From positions 103,688-167,687 of the forward strand of contig JAEPMR010000001.1 of NCBI GenBank assembly GCA_017643845.1: DNA of 64,000 nt. The letters run 5' to 3'. Every line of letters starts with the position of its first letter. Positions within the stretch are counted from its first letter, which is position 1. Below, piece by piece: positions 59,965-64,000 of this stretch. Under the pieces are notes generated by a model. The model worked only from the letters and a program-made list of their open reading frames with translations, was not told the origin of the DNA and did not search any database. The position numbers were made by a program, and so were the translations under genes. Source of the stretch: Marivivens sp. (GTDB lineage Bacteria > Pseudomonadota > Alphaproteobacteria > Rhodobacterales > Rhodobacteraceae).

Positions 59965-61254
59965 GTGCATCGTGTGTGGAAAACGTGTGTGGTGAACGTG
60001 CCTAAATACCTTCAAATGCGTCGTCGCCGTTGGTATGCGACCTTGGATATTCCGAAGAGCCTTAGACCTCTGTTTGGTGGTAAGCCGAGATTTGTCCAAA
60101 GCCTGCGCACCGAGAGCCTAACAGTTGCGGAAAGACGATGTCTGCCGGTTGTTGCCAATTGGAAGTCGCTGATTGCAAGCGCAAAGAATGGTGATCCAAC
60201 CCCGCTCAATGACCACGTTGATGACGCGATCTTGTGGCAAGAAATGCTCTACGATGCCACTGATGCGGATTCAAAAGCGGGGATTGAATATGGTCTCTCA
60301 ATCACCGCTGAAAAACTTGACAAGGAAAAAGTCGGAAGAGGTGTCGAACTGTATAAAGTTGCCACAAGGCAATGGCACCTAACTTCTCGCCATGTCGAGG
60401 ACTGGCTAGCGACTCTTTCCAATGAGCCAAAGAGCATCGATATGAAGCGGACAGACCTAGACCGTCTGTCGTCCAAATTTCACCTGACCCGTGATGTTCG
60501 CAGAAATGCTGTTAGGCAATGGGTCGTAGACCTACAGCAGCGGGATGGACTGAAAACCTCTACTGTACGCCGCATAATTTCCACATGCAGAGGGTACTGG
60601 CGCTATCTTCAGATGCTCGAGGTTGTTCCTGATAGTACTGACCCGTTCAACGATGTCGTGCCTGCCAATTCCCAAAAGACGAAAGCCGAAGTCGCCGCGA
60701 AGCGAAGAGCCTTTACCGCTGCGGCAGTTTTGCAACTTCATCAAGCGGCAATCGAAAAGGAAGACTCGGATCTAGCGGACCTCATAACCCTGGCAATGTG
60801 GACTGGCTGCCGGATTGAGGAACTATGCAGCCTGAAAGTTGCACAAGTTCATTCAGACTACTTCGAAATTTCCGAGGCCAAATCTGAGGCCGGTTGGCGC
60901 GAAGTGCCGATACACTCAAAATTAGCCCCTTTAATTGAGCAGCTTGTGACCCGCAGTATTGACGGCTACCTCCTCTCCGGTCTCACAAAAAACAAGTACG
61001 GAGATCGCTCAAACGCCATCGGTAAACGCTTTGGACGGCTCAAGACGAGCATGGGCTTTGGGTCAAACTATGTATTCCACTCGATAAGGAAGACCGTAGC
61101 GACACAACTGGACGCAGCTGGAATCCCTGAGCCAGTTACTGCCCGCATTTTGGGGCATGATATTCCTACAATGACATATGGAATTTACTCGGCAGGAGCG
61201 CCAATGGCGGTCAAGAAAGAGGCCATCGAAAAGCTAGAATACCCATCCAAATAG
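59965..61254 (+). CDS. Tyrosine-type site-specific integrase
   Basis: Up to 429 residues from GTG 59965; GTG at 59992 or 59998 would give the more natural starts VNVPKYL or VPKYL, and no ATG is available. N-terminal region typical of alphaproteobacterial phage-type integrases (RRRWYATLDIPKSLRPLFGG). Catalytic set numbered from 59965: Arg283 (GCRIEELC), His372 and Arg375 (HSIRKT), His398 (ILGHD), and nucleophile Tyr408 (TYGIYSAG). The gene is AT-richer than the chromosome before it. It marks the left side of an integrated element. Confidence 0.93.
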   Translation: MHRVWKTCVVNVPKYLQMRRRRWYATLDIPKSLRPLFGGKPRFVQSLRTESLTVAERRCLPVVANWKSLIASAKNGDPTPLNDHVDDAILWQEMLYDATDADSKAGIEYGLSITAEKLDKEKVGRGVELYKVATRQWHLTSRHVEDWLATLSNEPKSIDMKRTDLDRLSSKFHLTRDVRRNAVRQWVVDLQQRDGLKTSTVRRIISTCRGYWRYLQMLEVVPDSTDPFNDVVPANSQKTKAEVAAKRRAFTAAAVLQLHQAAIEKEDSDLADLITLAMWTGCRIEELCSLKVAQVHSDYFEISEAKSEAGWREVPIHSKLAPLIEQLVTRSIDGYLLSGLTKNKYGDRSNAIGKRFGRLKTSMGFGSNYVFHSIRKTVATQLDAAGIPEPVTARILGHDIPTMTYGIYSAGAPMAVKKEAIEKLEYPSK

Positions 61255-61261
61255 TGATTTA

Positions 61262-61477
61262 TCACGAGCGACCATTTACCCCGAACTAGCATCGCAGCAA
61301 AGGCTTGTTGCTCATTGTTCGAGCCTTTCATCGAGGTTTGCTGACGGTATCATTGGCCCCGCGACGATAGCCGCAATTCAGCGCTTTCAAAGAGCTTACG
61401 GCCTGACACCTGACGGTATAGTCGGAACACAAACCCTCCGTGCTTTGATGTCACAACCAACCGGTGCCTGTTACTAA
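61262..61477 (+). pseudogene. Remnant of a peptidoglycan-binding-domain protein (phage endolysin-like)
   Basis: No start codon is available. In the frame ending at TAA 61475-61477, residues from about 61343 read DGIIGPATIAAIQRFQRAYG and then LTPDGIVGTQTLRAL. This is a nearly complete PG_binding_1 repeat, as found at the C-terminus of endolysins and cell-wall hydrolases. The catalytic domain is missing; upstream sequence in frame is not recognisable. Probably a decayed lysis gene, implying phage ancestry of the element. Confidence 0.6.
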
Positions 61478-61503
61478 AAGCTATCCAGGCTGCATCGTCT
61501 CCT

Positions 61504-61605
61504 ATGTTGGGGGAGTTGCTGAGATCGAACAGGCAATATTTCCCAGCATTGGCTGCCGCAATGGACGAGGGGAAACGTAGATTCTTCAGGTTGCGTCAGC
61601 TTTAG
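61504..61605 (+). CDS. Short open frame, unknown (possible gene fragment)
   Basis: 33 codons from ATG to TAG. The frame reads back upstream without a stop (KAIQAASSP precedes the Met) and looks protein-like (MLGELLRSNRQYFPALAAAM, then charged residues). It may be the 3' end of a degraded gene rather than a real small protein. A terminator-like hairpin follows at once. I do not recognise a family. Confidence 0.3.
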   Translation: MLGELLRSNRQYFPALAAAMDEGKRRFFRLRQL

Positions 61606-61646
61606 AACCACAACATCTGGGGCTAACACTAGATATAGTGGTTTTT
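61606..61646 (+). terminator. Probable intrinsic terminator after the gene remnants
   Basis: AACCAC (61606-61611) pairs with GTGGTT (61638-61643), with inner ATCT/AGAT pairing, followed by TTT to 61646. It would end transcription from the left before the structured region. Confidence 0.4.
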
Positions 61647-61792
61647 CAAAAGGTAGGCACTACGACTTTTTGAGCCTACATACAATACTTGGACAACACT
61701 TGGGGAGGCACACAACATATTGTGGTTAGACTCCCTCATACCCATAGAGTGGCTATCTGGAAATGGCCCGAAAAAGACCAGCAATATCAATG

Positions 61793-61805
61793 ACTTAAAT
61801 TAAGT
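61793..61805. repeat. AT-rich odd palindrome ahead of the direct-repeat array
   Basis: ACTTAA-A-TTAAGT, perfect 6-bp arms around a single base, 30 bp before the first CTTAGGT repeat. A possible protein-binding site. Confidence 0.35.
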
Positions 61806-61835
61806 TCCACCATTGAATACCCCGGTCCCTATACC

Positions 61836-61893
61836 CTTAGGTATATAACTTAGGTAGATACTTAGGTTCAGAACTTAGGTTCAGACCTTAGGT
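61836..61893 (+). repeat. Iteron-like array: five CTTAGGT direct repeats
   Basis: CTTAGGT occurs at 61836, 61849, 61861, 61874 and 61887, with steps of 13, 12, 13 and 13 bp. The third and fourth repeats share the longer block CTTAGGTTCAGA. The spacing and AT-rich setting resemble replication iterons or a multi-copy protein-binding site. The array ends 14 bp before the first hairpin unit. Confidence 0.75.
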
Positions 61894-61907
61894 AGAACTG
61901 CAGTTTT

Positions 61908-61957
61908 CTAGAGTATGAGTAATCAACAACAACAACATAGTTGATTACTATCTCTAG
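61908..61957 (+). repeat. Hairpin unit 1, AAC-repeat loop
   Basis: Outer clamp CTAGAG (61908-61913) with CTCTAG (61952-61957). Inner stem AGTAATCAAC (61918-61927) with GTTGATTACT (61940-61949), 10 bp perfect. AAC is repeated four times at 61925-61936, starting inside the 5' stem strand. Confidence 0.8.
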
Positions 61958-61986
61958 TATATCTGTAGTTCATGCACTGTAGTCTT

Positions 61987-62036
61987 CTAGAGAGCCTCTA
62001 TCCCCGAGGAGGAGGAGGAGGGGATAATAACTCTAG
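61987..62036 (+). repeat. Hairpin unit 2, GAG-repeat loop
   Basis: Outer clamp CTAGAG (61987-61992) with CTCTAG (62031-62036). Inner stem TATCCCC (61999-62005) with GGGGATA (62020-62026). GAG is repeated five times at 62006-62020, filling the loop. Confidence 0.8.
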
Positions 62037-62067
62037 TTAGGTACTACAGCTCATAGACCCTAGTCTT

Positions 62068-62116
62068 CTAGAGAGCCTTCATGATCATCATCATCAGTAT
62101 GATATCATAGCTCTAG
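62068..62116 (+). repeat. Hairpin unit 3, ATC-repeat loop
   Basis: Outer clamp CTAGAG (62068-62073) with CTCTAG (62111-62116). Inner stem ATGAT (62081-62085) with ATCAT (62104-62108), shorter than in the other units. ATC is repeated four times at 62084-62095. A local 12-bp palindrome at 62098-62109 offers an alternative fold. Confidence 0.7.
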
Positions 62117-62156
62117 TAGTACTACAGTTCATAACCTCTGGTCTTTCTGTAGTCAT

Positions 62157-62201
62157 CTAGAGAGCCTATGACCACCACCACCTAGTGGTCATACTGTCTA
62201 G
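62157..62201 (+). repeat. Hairpin unit 4, ACC-repeat loop
   Basis: Outer clamp CTAGA (62157-62161) with TCTAG (62197-62201). Inner stem TATGACCAC (62167-62175) with GTGGTCATA (62185-62193), 9 bp perfect. ACC is repeated four times at 62171-62182, starting inside the 5' stem strand. Confidence 0.8.
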
Positions 62202-62356
62202 TATCACTACAGGTCATTACCTCTGGTCTCCTCGTGAGGTCATACTGAAGATCATCCTCTAGTCAGACTGCCGCTCATGACGCGGGTTATCCTCAATGTT
62301 CCCTCTTCAGACCCAGACATGTGTCTCCCTCTCTGGGTCCCCCTCCTGCTCTCCTA

Positions 62357-62418
62357 AAGCCCCTCGCTTCAGGTGTCTTCTGACCAAGACCTCTGATCCA
62401 TGCGAGGGGCTTTTTTTT
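62357..62418 (+). terminator. Strong intrinsic terminator closing the hairpin array
   Basis: AAGCCCCTCGC (62357-62367) pairs perfectly with GCGAGGGGCTT (62402-62412) and runs into eight T (62411-62418). The 34-nt loop itself can form a GTCTT/AAGAC hairpin. Only three A precede the left arm, so it acts on plus-strand transcripts. Confidence 0.8.
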
Positions 62419-62607
62419 CGAGATCGGCTTTAGGGGTCTTTTCTTAGGCCGCGAGGTCTACACATGTCAGGTCACTCTGCGCAGTCGACAGGCCTTTGCA
62501 CGGCCCTTACCGAAGACCAACCAATGCATGGTCTGATCAGCAGATCCTCCTGCGCCCCGCTCGTCGAGCCACAGGCTCCGAGCAATCATTCCCCACCTTC
62601 GCCATAC

Positions 62608-62657
62608 AGGGCAGATACATGAGTTGTGACGCAGCTCGCATGTGTCTGCCCTTTTTT
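62608..62657 (+). terminator. Second plus-strand terminator hairpin
   Basis: AGGGCAGATACATG pairs with CATGTGTCTGCCCT (14 bp, one G-U) and is followed by six T to 62657. It shares TCTGCCCTTTTTT and a downstream CGTCATC with the next terminator, so the two are paralogous. Confidence 0.7.
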
Positions 62658-62704
62658 GTTCCGTCATCTTTGTTGGCGGTTGTTCTTTCCTCACTTCTCT
62701 CAAA

Positions 62705-62755
62705 GGGTAGGCATGAGCGATCTTCTTTAGGTCTCTCAGGTCTGCCCTTTTTTTT
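62705..62755 (+). terminator. Third plus-strand terminator hairpin
   Basis: GGGTAGGCATGAG (62705-62717) pairs with CTCAGGTCTGCCC (62735-62747) with one mismatch and two G-U, then eight T to 62755. The unit of about 100 bp between this and the previous terminator could be a separate small RNA. Confidence 0.7.
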
Positions 62756-62802
62756 CGACGTCATCGTTCCGAGATTGCCTCACGATTCAAATGCGCCTGA
62801 GA

Positions 62803-63103
62803 GACTCTCAGAGAGTCACTGAGTGCCCCTAAGCGCTCCGCAGCACGTTGGGGTGCCAATAAGCCCCAAGACTCCTCAGCGAGTCTCTCCGTGAGTCTGA
62901 GGGGCATGGTCAATTTGCGAGGCTCTGCCGAAGGCTGAATTGTTGGGTGTGGGGGATACACAAACCGCCCGCTTACCCAAAACACACAAGGACTCTCAGA
63001 GCGCCGGAGAGAGTCACTGAGTACGGGTTGGGTCTTGCGAGTCCCTGAGGTTAAAACAGGCGCTAACGATCCTCCTCGAGTCTCTCCGTAGCTCTCAGAG
63101 TCA
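62803..63103. repeat. Second repeat family with GACTCTC/GAGAGTC inverted repeats
   Basis: Two copies of GACTCTC...GAGAGTCACTGAGT (62803-62823 with a 1-nt centre; 62991-63022 with an 11-nt centre) and two copies of GAGTCTCTCCGT (62881-62892; 63078-63089), partly in opposite orientation. CCTCAG/CTGAGG arms flank the 62881 copy (62874-62879 and 62897-62902). A TTGGGG/CCCCAA hairpin lies near 62849-62870. Plausible protein-binding or RNA-folding elements; function unknown. Confidence 0.55.
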
Positions 63104-63333
63104 TATGTGCTCTTATGGCCTGTGGGCGACCAAGCCCGCGACTGATTTTGCTGCAAAAATCTGAACAGGTATTCGATAGGTCGTCTTGCGATTGTTTCCC
63201 CCGCTGGGGGCTTGCCAGTGACAGCCTCAGCGCATCGGTGATTGCCGCATAAAGACCCATAGTCGACCGGCAACCGTCAAGCCTTCAGCCCATGGAGGAC
63301 CGTCAATATGCTGAGGGGTGCCTCCTTATTTTT

Positions 63334-63447
63334 TGTCCGTAGAGGTATACCTCAGTGGACACTCCCTGTGGTCTTATTTTTTGTGTCCGTAAGGCTTGAC
63401 TTTGATCAACGGACATCGCTAACAACGGACAGGACTACAAAGGACAC
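63334..63447 (+). promoter_or_regulatory. Res-like recombination/regulatory site of the serine recombinase
   Basis: Site I, 28 bp at 63334-63361: TGTCCGTAGAGGTA and its right half form an imperfect dyad with a TA centre and 12-bp core palindrome GAGGTATACCTC. Site II, 32 bp at 63384-63415: TGTCCGT and ACGGACA are perfect 7-bp arms. Site III, half-sites ACGGACA (63425-63431) and AGGACAC (63441-63447). The layout and lengths match the three-subsite res of Tn3-family resolvases, placed just before the gene. Confidence 0.6.
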
Positions 63448-63455
63448 ACATACTC

Positions 63456-64000
63456 ATGACCAAGACCATCCTCTATGCCCGCGTCTCCACGGCAGACCAA
63501 ACCCTCGATCATCAGCTGTCCCAGGCTCAAGCTGCAGGCTTCTCCATCGATGAAGTCATTGCCGACCATGGGGTCTCTGGCGTCAACACTCCCCTAAAAG
63601 AAAGACCTGAAGGAAAGCGGCTCCACGACAAACTGCGCCATGGGGATACATTGGTTGTCCGCTGGGTGGATCGTTTAGGGCGGAACTATCAGGACGTTAC
63701 AGATACAATACGGCACTTTATGCGCCTTGGGGTGGTCATTCGCACGGTCATCAATGGTCTGACCTTCGATGGAGCCACCAAAGACCCGATGCAAGAAGCT
63801 GTCAGAGATGCCCTAATCGCCTTTATGGCAGCATCCGCTCAAGCCCAAGCCGAAGCACAAAAAGAAGCCCAAAGAGCAGGCATAGACGCCGCCAAGCAGG
63901 ACCGCAGTAAGTACCGAGGCAAAAAGCCCAGCTATGATCGCAAGACCCTCAATCTCGTCAAAGACCTCCTAAGCCAAGGCAAGGGGGCAAGTGAGATCAG
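63456..64000 (+). CDS. Serine recombinase (resolvase/invertase family), cut by the right edge
   Basis: 181 residues visible, no stop before the window ends. N-terminal catalytic domain: YARVSTADQTLDHQL with nucleophile Ser11, then RWVDRLGRNYQDV (arginine-rich active-site segment), then MAASAQAQAEAQKEAQRAG on helix E. From about 155 a helix-turn-helix begins (SYDRKTLNLVKDLLSQGKGASEI). Small-resolvase architecture. AAAGGA lies 10 nt before the ATG, and the res-like site overlaps its promoter region, as in autoregulated resolvases. Confidence 0.93.
   Translation, partial: MTKTILYARVSTADQTLDHQLSQAQAAGFSIDEVIADHGVSGVNTPLKERPEGKRLHDKLRHGDTLVVRWVDRLGRNYQDVTDTIRHFMRLGVVIRTVINGLTFDGATKDPMQEAVRDALIAFMAASAQAQAEAQKEAQRAGIDAAKQDRSKYRGKKPSYDRKTLNLVKDLLSQGKGASEI

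Follow-up and report, generated by a model that had tools for sequence, protein, structure and literature searches.

REP/BIME palindromes are conserved and dispersed through the genome, CRISPR arrays combine near-identical direct repeats with non-palindromic spacers, and the cuckoo RNAs (CcsR) of Rhodobacter, from the same bacterial group as the genome studied here, are tandem small RNAs with the motif CCUCCUCCC. An array followed by terminators is a layout common for small RNA genes, and covarying stems usually count as strong evidence for a selected RNA. Further, the ToxI RNA of Type III toxin-antitoxin systems consists of tandem repeats followed by a terminator (PMC8860590), while integron attC sites have two conserved box pairs, an unpaired central spacer and a variable terminal structure (PMC2727003). 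Finally, in quasipalindromes, that is, imperfect inverted repeats, a polymerase that stalls at the palindrome takes the nascent strand as its template, which brings the palindrome closer to perfection (PMC7202029), so that arms become or stay perfect and multi-base compensatory changes appear, and such template switching is able to create and maintain RNA hairpins (PMC8794818).

The locus described here, an array of four tandem hairpin units (U1-U4) within a 64-kb window (the whole stretch of DNA that was analysed), shows the hallmark of quasipalindromes, namely arms that have changed together and pair by Watson-Crick pairs only, as judged from an alignment made by hand. It differs from them in comprising four tandem units with a common frame and a different triplet run at each apex, and in that here we infer the process. 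As opposed to attC sites, the array has no AAC/GTT R box, cassettes or recognised IntI; as opposed to ToxI, its repeats are not uniform and no toxin gene was recognised behind the terminator (Pfam gave no match in 62496-62819 on the + strand or 62764-63273 on the - strand, the two longest of six frames of at least 60 codons past the terminator). The CcsR motif is only partly echoed, on the minus strand of U2, and the other loops differ. The variable parts are self-complementary, in contrast to CRISPR spacers, and there is no dispersal of the REP/BIME kind since a covariance model of the units (R1) finds, at a cutoff of E 0.1, just these four copies in the genome studied here (G000).

Four hairpin units on a common frame

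The four units are marked by CTAGAG starting at 61908, 61987, 62068 and 62157 (i.e., spacings of 79, 81 and 89 bp), which forms with CTCTAG a clamp common to U1-U4; in this, an earlier reading made from the sequence alone (hereafter, the sequence-only reading) was right. A second common stem outside the clamp, CTGTAG/CTACAG, was overlooked by that reading; it occurs with variants (CTGCAG/CTGTAG in U1; CCCTAG/CTACAG is also present) and has two of its six pairs broken in U3. With the outer stem included, the units are hairpins of 66-73 nt separated by linkers of 8, 8 and 19 nt, and the parts of each unit follow the order outer stem, unpaired spacer (4 vs. 5-7 nt), clamp, short unpaired joint, unit-specific inner stem, and triplet run. 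Specifically, and without assigning a strand to any unit, U1 (61898-61968) has a 10-bp inner stem and a (CAA)4 run (CAACAACAACAACA, 61924-61937); U2 (61977-62049) has a 7-bp inner stem and a (GAG)5 run ((GAG)5G, 62006-62021); U3 (62058-62127) combines the partly broken outer stem with a 5+5-bp bulged inner stem and an (ATC)4 run (ATCATCATCATCA, 62084-62096); and U4 (62147-62212) has a clamp one pair shorter, a 9-bp inner stem and an (ACC)4 run (62171-62182). A degenerate fifth copy that comprises just the right-hand frame (family D2, 61% identical to the reference copy) lies at 62258-62290 on the + strand.

The tips required more revision. The loops had been described as pure triplet repeats; instead, the runs start or stop within a stem arm, overlapping one arm in each unit, and the loop of U1 is closed by ATA and that of U4 by TA, so that neither is wholly triplet. 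The AGCC-type spacer said to belong to every unit is present in U2-U4 but absent from U1, and the U3 inner stem is better read, with a bulge, as ATGAT-C-ATCAT/ATGAT-ATCAT. The core sequences do differ in every unit, as claimed, but those of U1, U3 and U4 share the design ATGA...(ANC)4, with N being A, T and C, followed by ATAGT, AGT and TAGT, respectively. The U2 run is of another class (GAG) and adjoins the right arm, and its core is not obviously the same as these three. Overall, the left frames are 75-94% identical between units whereas the cores align at only 38-64%.

To relate these features to chance, each core was shuffled 4000 times, and equally long triplet runs and perfect Watson-Crick stems were counted. 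Runs of equal length appeared in none of the shuffles for U1, U2 and U4, and in one for U3. Equally long perfect stems appeared in 2 (U1, 10 bp), 13 (U2, 7 bp) and 2 (U4, 9 bp) shuffles; hence, chance rarely gives the inner stems of these three units, whereas that of U3 is not significant alone because 1244 of the 4000 shuffles give a 5-bp stem. The whole window contains five triplet runs of at least four copies, four of them in the array, and 580,911 other bases of this genome contain 11; this corresponds to about one run per 54 kb outside the array and thus about 0.006 expected per 300 nt. Perfect stems of at least 7 bp around a triplet run number three in the array and zero in the same 580,911 bases, which provided two runs with a 6-bp stem, while about 2.27 Mb of further loci, not all of them free of overlap, provided one run with a stem of at least 7 bp (L081) and five more with 6 bp. 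The array is real and highly non-random.

Arms that changed together and their possible origin

For comparisons between units, the lowest seven core pairs were aligned by hand, anchored on the stems, with one U3 bulge omitted and the U1 register chosen. Watson-Crick pairs fill 27 of the 28 cells of this alignment, a figure that is partly built in by anchoring on the stems; what is informative is the difference in pair types. Four of the seven core pairs (again in the hand alignment) have changed on both sides, e.g., pair 6 reads A-T, T-A and C-G across U1, U3 and U4, and the true assignment of right arms ranks best among 24 permutations. The covarying cores on a constant frame reported by the sequence-only reading are thus supported. 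Since ATGA...(ANC)4...AGT is common to U1, U3 and U4, the middle base has changed in all four triplets at once and the arm facing them has changed with it, as expected from concerted slippage combined with arm correction. G-U pairs are absent from the inner stems, whose 36 pairs are Watson-Crick throughout; in the outer stem there is a single G-U, along with a compensatory change at pair 4 (C-G vs. T-A) and, in U3, two mismatches. Further, in five of the six comparisons between cores, similarity exceeds that of 290 or more of 300 shuffled versions, with the caveat that both the palindrome and the run are lost on shuffling.

We tentatively favor the hypothesis that this is a young hairpin array, the tips of which were rewritten by hairpin-templated copying errors. 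Under this hypothesis, one ancestral unit would have been duplicated to give four tandem inverted-repeat units. A unit would fold while the DNA is single-stranded and the polymerase would stall at the hairpin; slippage would then homogenise triplets into runs, and template switching would copy one arm onto the other, keeping the arms complementary. As a result, the tips would drift fast, unit by unit, with the frame staying recognisable. In the simplest history of this kind, all four triplet copies of a single ancestral tip would have changed, with the arm opposite them then following suit. While the frame, the complementary cores and the equality of the two strands (below) are observed, the order of events and both types of error are what we infer from them. 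Rewriting fits the pure Watson-Crick arms, the strand equality and the runs that overlap one arm, and the sequences searched (below) contained no second array. Against it, slippage leaves the constant number of 4-5 copies in all four runs unexplained, the U2 run is of a different class, the outer stem shows a compensatory change and one G-U as selection on an RNA would give, and a + strand terminator, then two more, follow the array.

It is important to note that template switching coupled to slippage would also yield covariation, which is consequently no proof of selection on an RNA. The sequence-only reading had taken it as such, and that step fails: the two strands fold about equally well, the 36 inner pairs include no G-U, and the promoter scan detected none of the sigma-70 type. 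Because a mutational process could account for the covariation of this orphan array, the locus is a natural test case for template switching vs. selection. An extension, which we regard as unlikely, is that the array diversifies itself, i.e., the fixed clamp would be a platform on which replication makes new stems and tips, shown as a terminator-ended RNA with orthogonal hairpins and unstructured loops. If true, this would represent a natural class of RNA scaffold that arises from hairpin-templated mutation as opposed to point mutation and selection.

Search for relatives of the array

Searches with blastn, using 641 and 2206 bases, found no array among plasmids and phages. Among 147 related genomes, nine besides G000 matched at E 0.1 or better, all over short lengths and none with an array, the best match (E 1e-4 over 32 nt) being coding DNA by eye. 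The exact unit pattern, a scan that detects nearly identical arrays only, was found zero times in viral contigs and zero times in genome contigs (84,980 species genomes). A looser pattern matched 59 viral contigs, once each, which on inspection we judged to be chance, and a 15-base pattern gave single matches in 22 contigs, including a seeming empty unit in L287 that falls within a 945-codon frame.

The covariance model R1, applied to overlapping sets of 394, 390 and 385 genomes, gave strong matches only to the four units in G000, with stricter filters in searches of more than 40 genomes; R1 captures mainly the frame since the inner stems of U3 and U4 pair poorly in its MAFFT alignment. One weak match in G742 (23.3 bits, E 0.077) pairs poorly and was rejected. 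R1 had no match in 28 sources (resolvase loci plus two contig ends of this genome), no array and one weak match (13 bits, E 1.3) in five integrase loci, and one weak match (18.5 bits, E 0.45) in 40 stretches of this genome. The sequence-only reading had staked its RNA claim on homologous arrays being present somewhere; none was found, and that claim stands unproven, not refuted, because the searches required near-identity or relied on a model built on no more than the four units. The array may occur only in close relatives of this genome, which public collections may not include.

As that reading expected, no known RNA family was recognised: Rfam 15 gave no match at gathering score in the 64 kb, and the two sub-threshold matches within 61255-63455 (E 0.36 and 0.96) both lie off the array. 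Literature searches of open-licence PMC papers listed no title or opening of an abstract on a comparable array.

A possible + strand transcript

The most serious alternative to rewriting, doubtful but possible in our view, is a non-coding + strand RNA of about 0.5 kb that ends near 62418, in which the unit-specific arms would prevent mispairing and each triplet loop would bind a partner. The region that the sequence-only reading had suggested for folding, 61836-62418, gives a low z (-7.02 for 61836-62420), as does the whole array (z -6.19 on the + strand), and both speak for an RNA. However, the - strand folds the array equally well (z -6.35). On the + and - strands, respectively, z is -5.84 and -3.82 for U1 (61896-61970), -1.61 and -2.66 for U2, -1.97 and -2.27 for U3, and -5.47 and -4.84 for U4; that is, U2 and U3 are weak on the + strand when folded singly. 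Moreover, U2 misfolds as a + strand RNA, in which GCCUC/GAGG pairing is favored over the stem proposed earlier (-27.2 vs. -21.7 kcal/mol), and U2 and U3 merge in the fold of the entire + array. The whole-array fold of the - strand predicts hairpins at U1-U4, although U1 and U3 have opened outer stems, which pair with one another. Given that the two strands fold about equally, folding picks out no RNA strand.

The only strand-specific signs are three terminator-like hairpins on the + strand, all of which favor the RNA. The first is a strong, 12-bp hairpin at 62356-62418 (inverted repeat I5, z -5.31) that begins 143 nt downstream of the array and carries eight T at 62411-62418, three of them within the stem; it falls outside the consensus scan for terminators because its 34-nt loop is too long. 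The second (62608-62657, z -4.99) has six T and the third (62702-62755, z -4.45) eight. Also consistent with a non-coding RNA, no frame of at least 60 codons crosses the array on either strand, and the two-sided pair changes extend over both the core and the outer stem. On the other hand, the flank between array and terminator (62213-62355) lacks structure (z +0.36), a promoter scan that covers the sigma-70 type only gave no hit on either strand (vs. a shuffle mean of 2.3), and no homologue emerged from the plasmid, phage, viral, genome or R1 searches. Hfq recognises an ARN motif, which the AAC and AGG repeats would suit in two of the four loops; we set this aside as post hoc, together with an explanation by codon-optimal triplets.

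In our ranking, rewriting comes first, a + strand RNA second and a DNA-level site third, and the first two are mutually compatible. The likeliest role of the array, if any, is as a + strand RNA with its end at the 62356-62418 terminator, although the pattern requires no role. If the transcript exists, it would have a multi-hairpin RNA design without an Rfam match.

Beyond the first terminator, the hairpins at 62608-62657 and 62702-62755 contain an identical stretch of 14 bases, GTCTGCCCTTTTTT, in their 3' parts, and possibly represent a cluster of small RNA genes. A second repeated palindromic set (e.g., GACTCTCAGAG...GAGTCACTGAG) lies between the terminators and res, at 62793-63098, in two blocks about 190 bp apart.

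Iterons and the integrase-resolvase setting

The array sits in a 2.2-kb stretch that contains no convincing intact gene and lies between a tyrosine integrase with DUF6538 (59965-61254, + strand; PF00589, E 7.8e-15; PF20172, E 1.5e-10) and a res-like block with GTCCG/CGGAC repeats (63334-63440, + strand; 94% identity over 33 nt to G212 and 71% to G426) that precedes a serine resolvase (63456-64000, + strand; PF00239, E 7.5e-27). The res-like block is the part of 62421-63455 that matches resolvase-adjoining DNA of other genomes. The resolvase is cut by the end of its contig (C49), one of the 137 that make up this draft genome. Together with a GC drop from 0.63-0.68 to 0.49 near 59.8 kb, the integrase and res/resolvase bear out the mobile-element setting suggested by the sequence-only reading. 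No tRNA was found in the window. Just past the integrase, 61334-61474 encodes 47 residues of a peptidoglycan-binding domain (PF01471, E 1.2e-13), a fragment that may be left over from a phage lysis gene.

Five relatives of the integrase, 49-59% identical, were found in genome contigs, one of them in a MAG named Gammaproteobacteria; we take the other four to be Roseobacter-group genomes. A convergent resolvase follows the integrase in two of these five loci, and in one the contig stops soon past the integrase. The resolvase itself was detected (E 1e-40 or better) in 23 of 394 family genomes, G000 included, and across 24 resolvase loci the nearest upstream frame of at least 110 codons is 161-987 bp away, as compared to 2.2 kb for the integrase of the window. 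Two loci, L122 and L123, have a DUF6538 integrase, 12-bp iterons, res and resolvase in the same order as the window, and R1 finds no array in them; L023 has a frame with a sub-threshold integrase match before the resolvase, a small opposite frame in between and no array. Such recurrent integrase-resolvase loci without an array indicate that the array of the window sits in extra, variable DNA.

Directly preceding U1, in the most AT-rich part of the profiled stretch (GC 0.40), are five CTTAGGT iterons with 12-13 bp spacing (61836-61893, + strand; starts at 61836, 61849, 61861, 61874 and 61887; TRF period 13, 4.6 copies). Iterons and hairpins could thus form a DNA-level site, e.g., a replication origin, with single-strand initiation hairpins, of the element when circular, an arrangement that we liken to the IncQ oriV; a limited literature search gave this likeness no support. 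The position and GC content of the iterons favor such a site, as do the 12-bp iterons, of differing sequence, between the DUF6538 integrase and res of these two related loci (L122:2976-3038 and L123:7394-7429). But these two loci lack the array and their non-coding DNA folds at the level of shuffled sequence (z -0.25, from 20 shuffles, and +0.17), no replication gene was found among the scanned proteins beside the resolvase ends, with the contig stopping at the resolvase, and the iterons might equally serve the integrase or a regulator. Hence, we consider a DNA-level site improbable. CTTAGGT iterons as a phage signature were also considered and rejected: at least 120 viral contigs match, and the 80 inspected are mostly coding-like repeats.

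Remaining explanations and neighbouring loci

That the triplet runs are the codon runs of four mini-genes (MSNQQQQHS, MHCSLLESLYPRGGGGGDNNSS, MIIIISMIS and MTTTT), acting in tRNA sequestration or as leader peptides, appears very unlikely. An ATG-started open frame does cross the run in all four units on the + strand; however, for a random point in this stretch, the probability that an open in-frame ATG lies in the preceding 60 nt is 0.42, the minus strand also has a started frame in three of the four units (two ATG, one GTG), no good ribosome-binding site is seen by eye, and the U2 start codon falls in a linker. Similarly, the draft state of the genome (137 contigs, with a break at the resolvase) and the designed look of the triplet loops might suggest a sequencing or assembly artefact or a synthetic contaminant, but the array lies inside a 167,687-base contig, flanked by natural genes whose relatives occur in the same bacterial group, and its units have diverged and partly decayed in the manner of natural repeats, making this explanation highly implausible as well. 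Least credible of all is a role of each unit as an attC-like recombination site folded from a single strand, which would fit the order of outer stem, unpaired spacer, inner stem and variable tip (PMC2727003) but not the missing AAC/GTT boxes at the attC position, the DUF6538 type of the integrase or the 8-19 nt between units, which leave no room for cassettes. As for the extrahelical bases of attC sites, the clamp is unbulged in U1-U3, the U3 inner stem has a bulged C, and of the two joints the left one (AGCC) is the longer.

A few observations on the resolvase loci are worth reporting. A DNA methyltransferase/type ISP restriction gene is the nearest or second upstream gene in six of the 24 resolvase loci (L022, L028, L120, L126, L130 and L137, with L028 taken from annotation), in a survey that scanned one neighbour in 19 of the 24; restriction-modification genes may be cargo that moves with the resolvase. 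Within this genome, the resolvase 3' end is also found, with slightly different sequences, on two other contigs (L024:1-170 and L025:19830-20000), and the gene is probably present in two copies. These two ends adjoin two-component regulator genes and AT-rich islands, and the island beside the resolvase end of L025 encodes two large DUF285 plus PKD proteins (L025:10829-16433).
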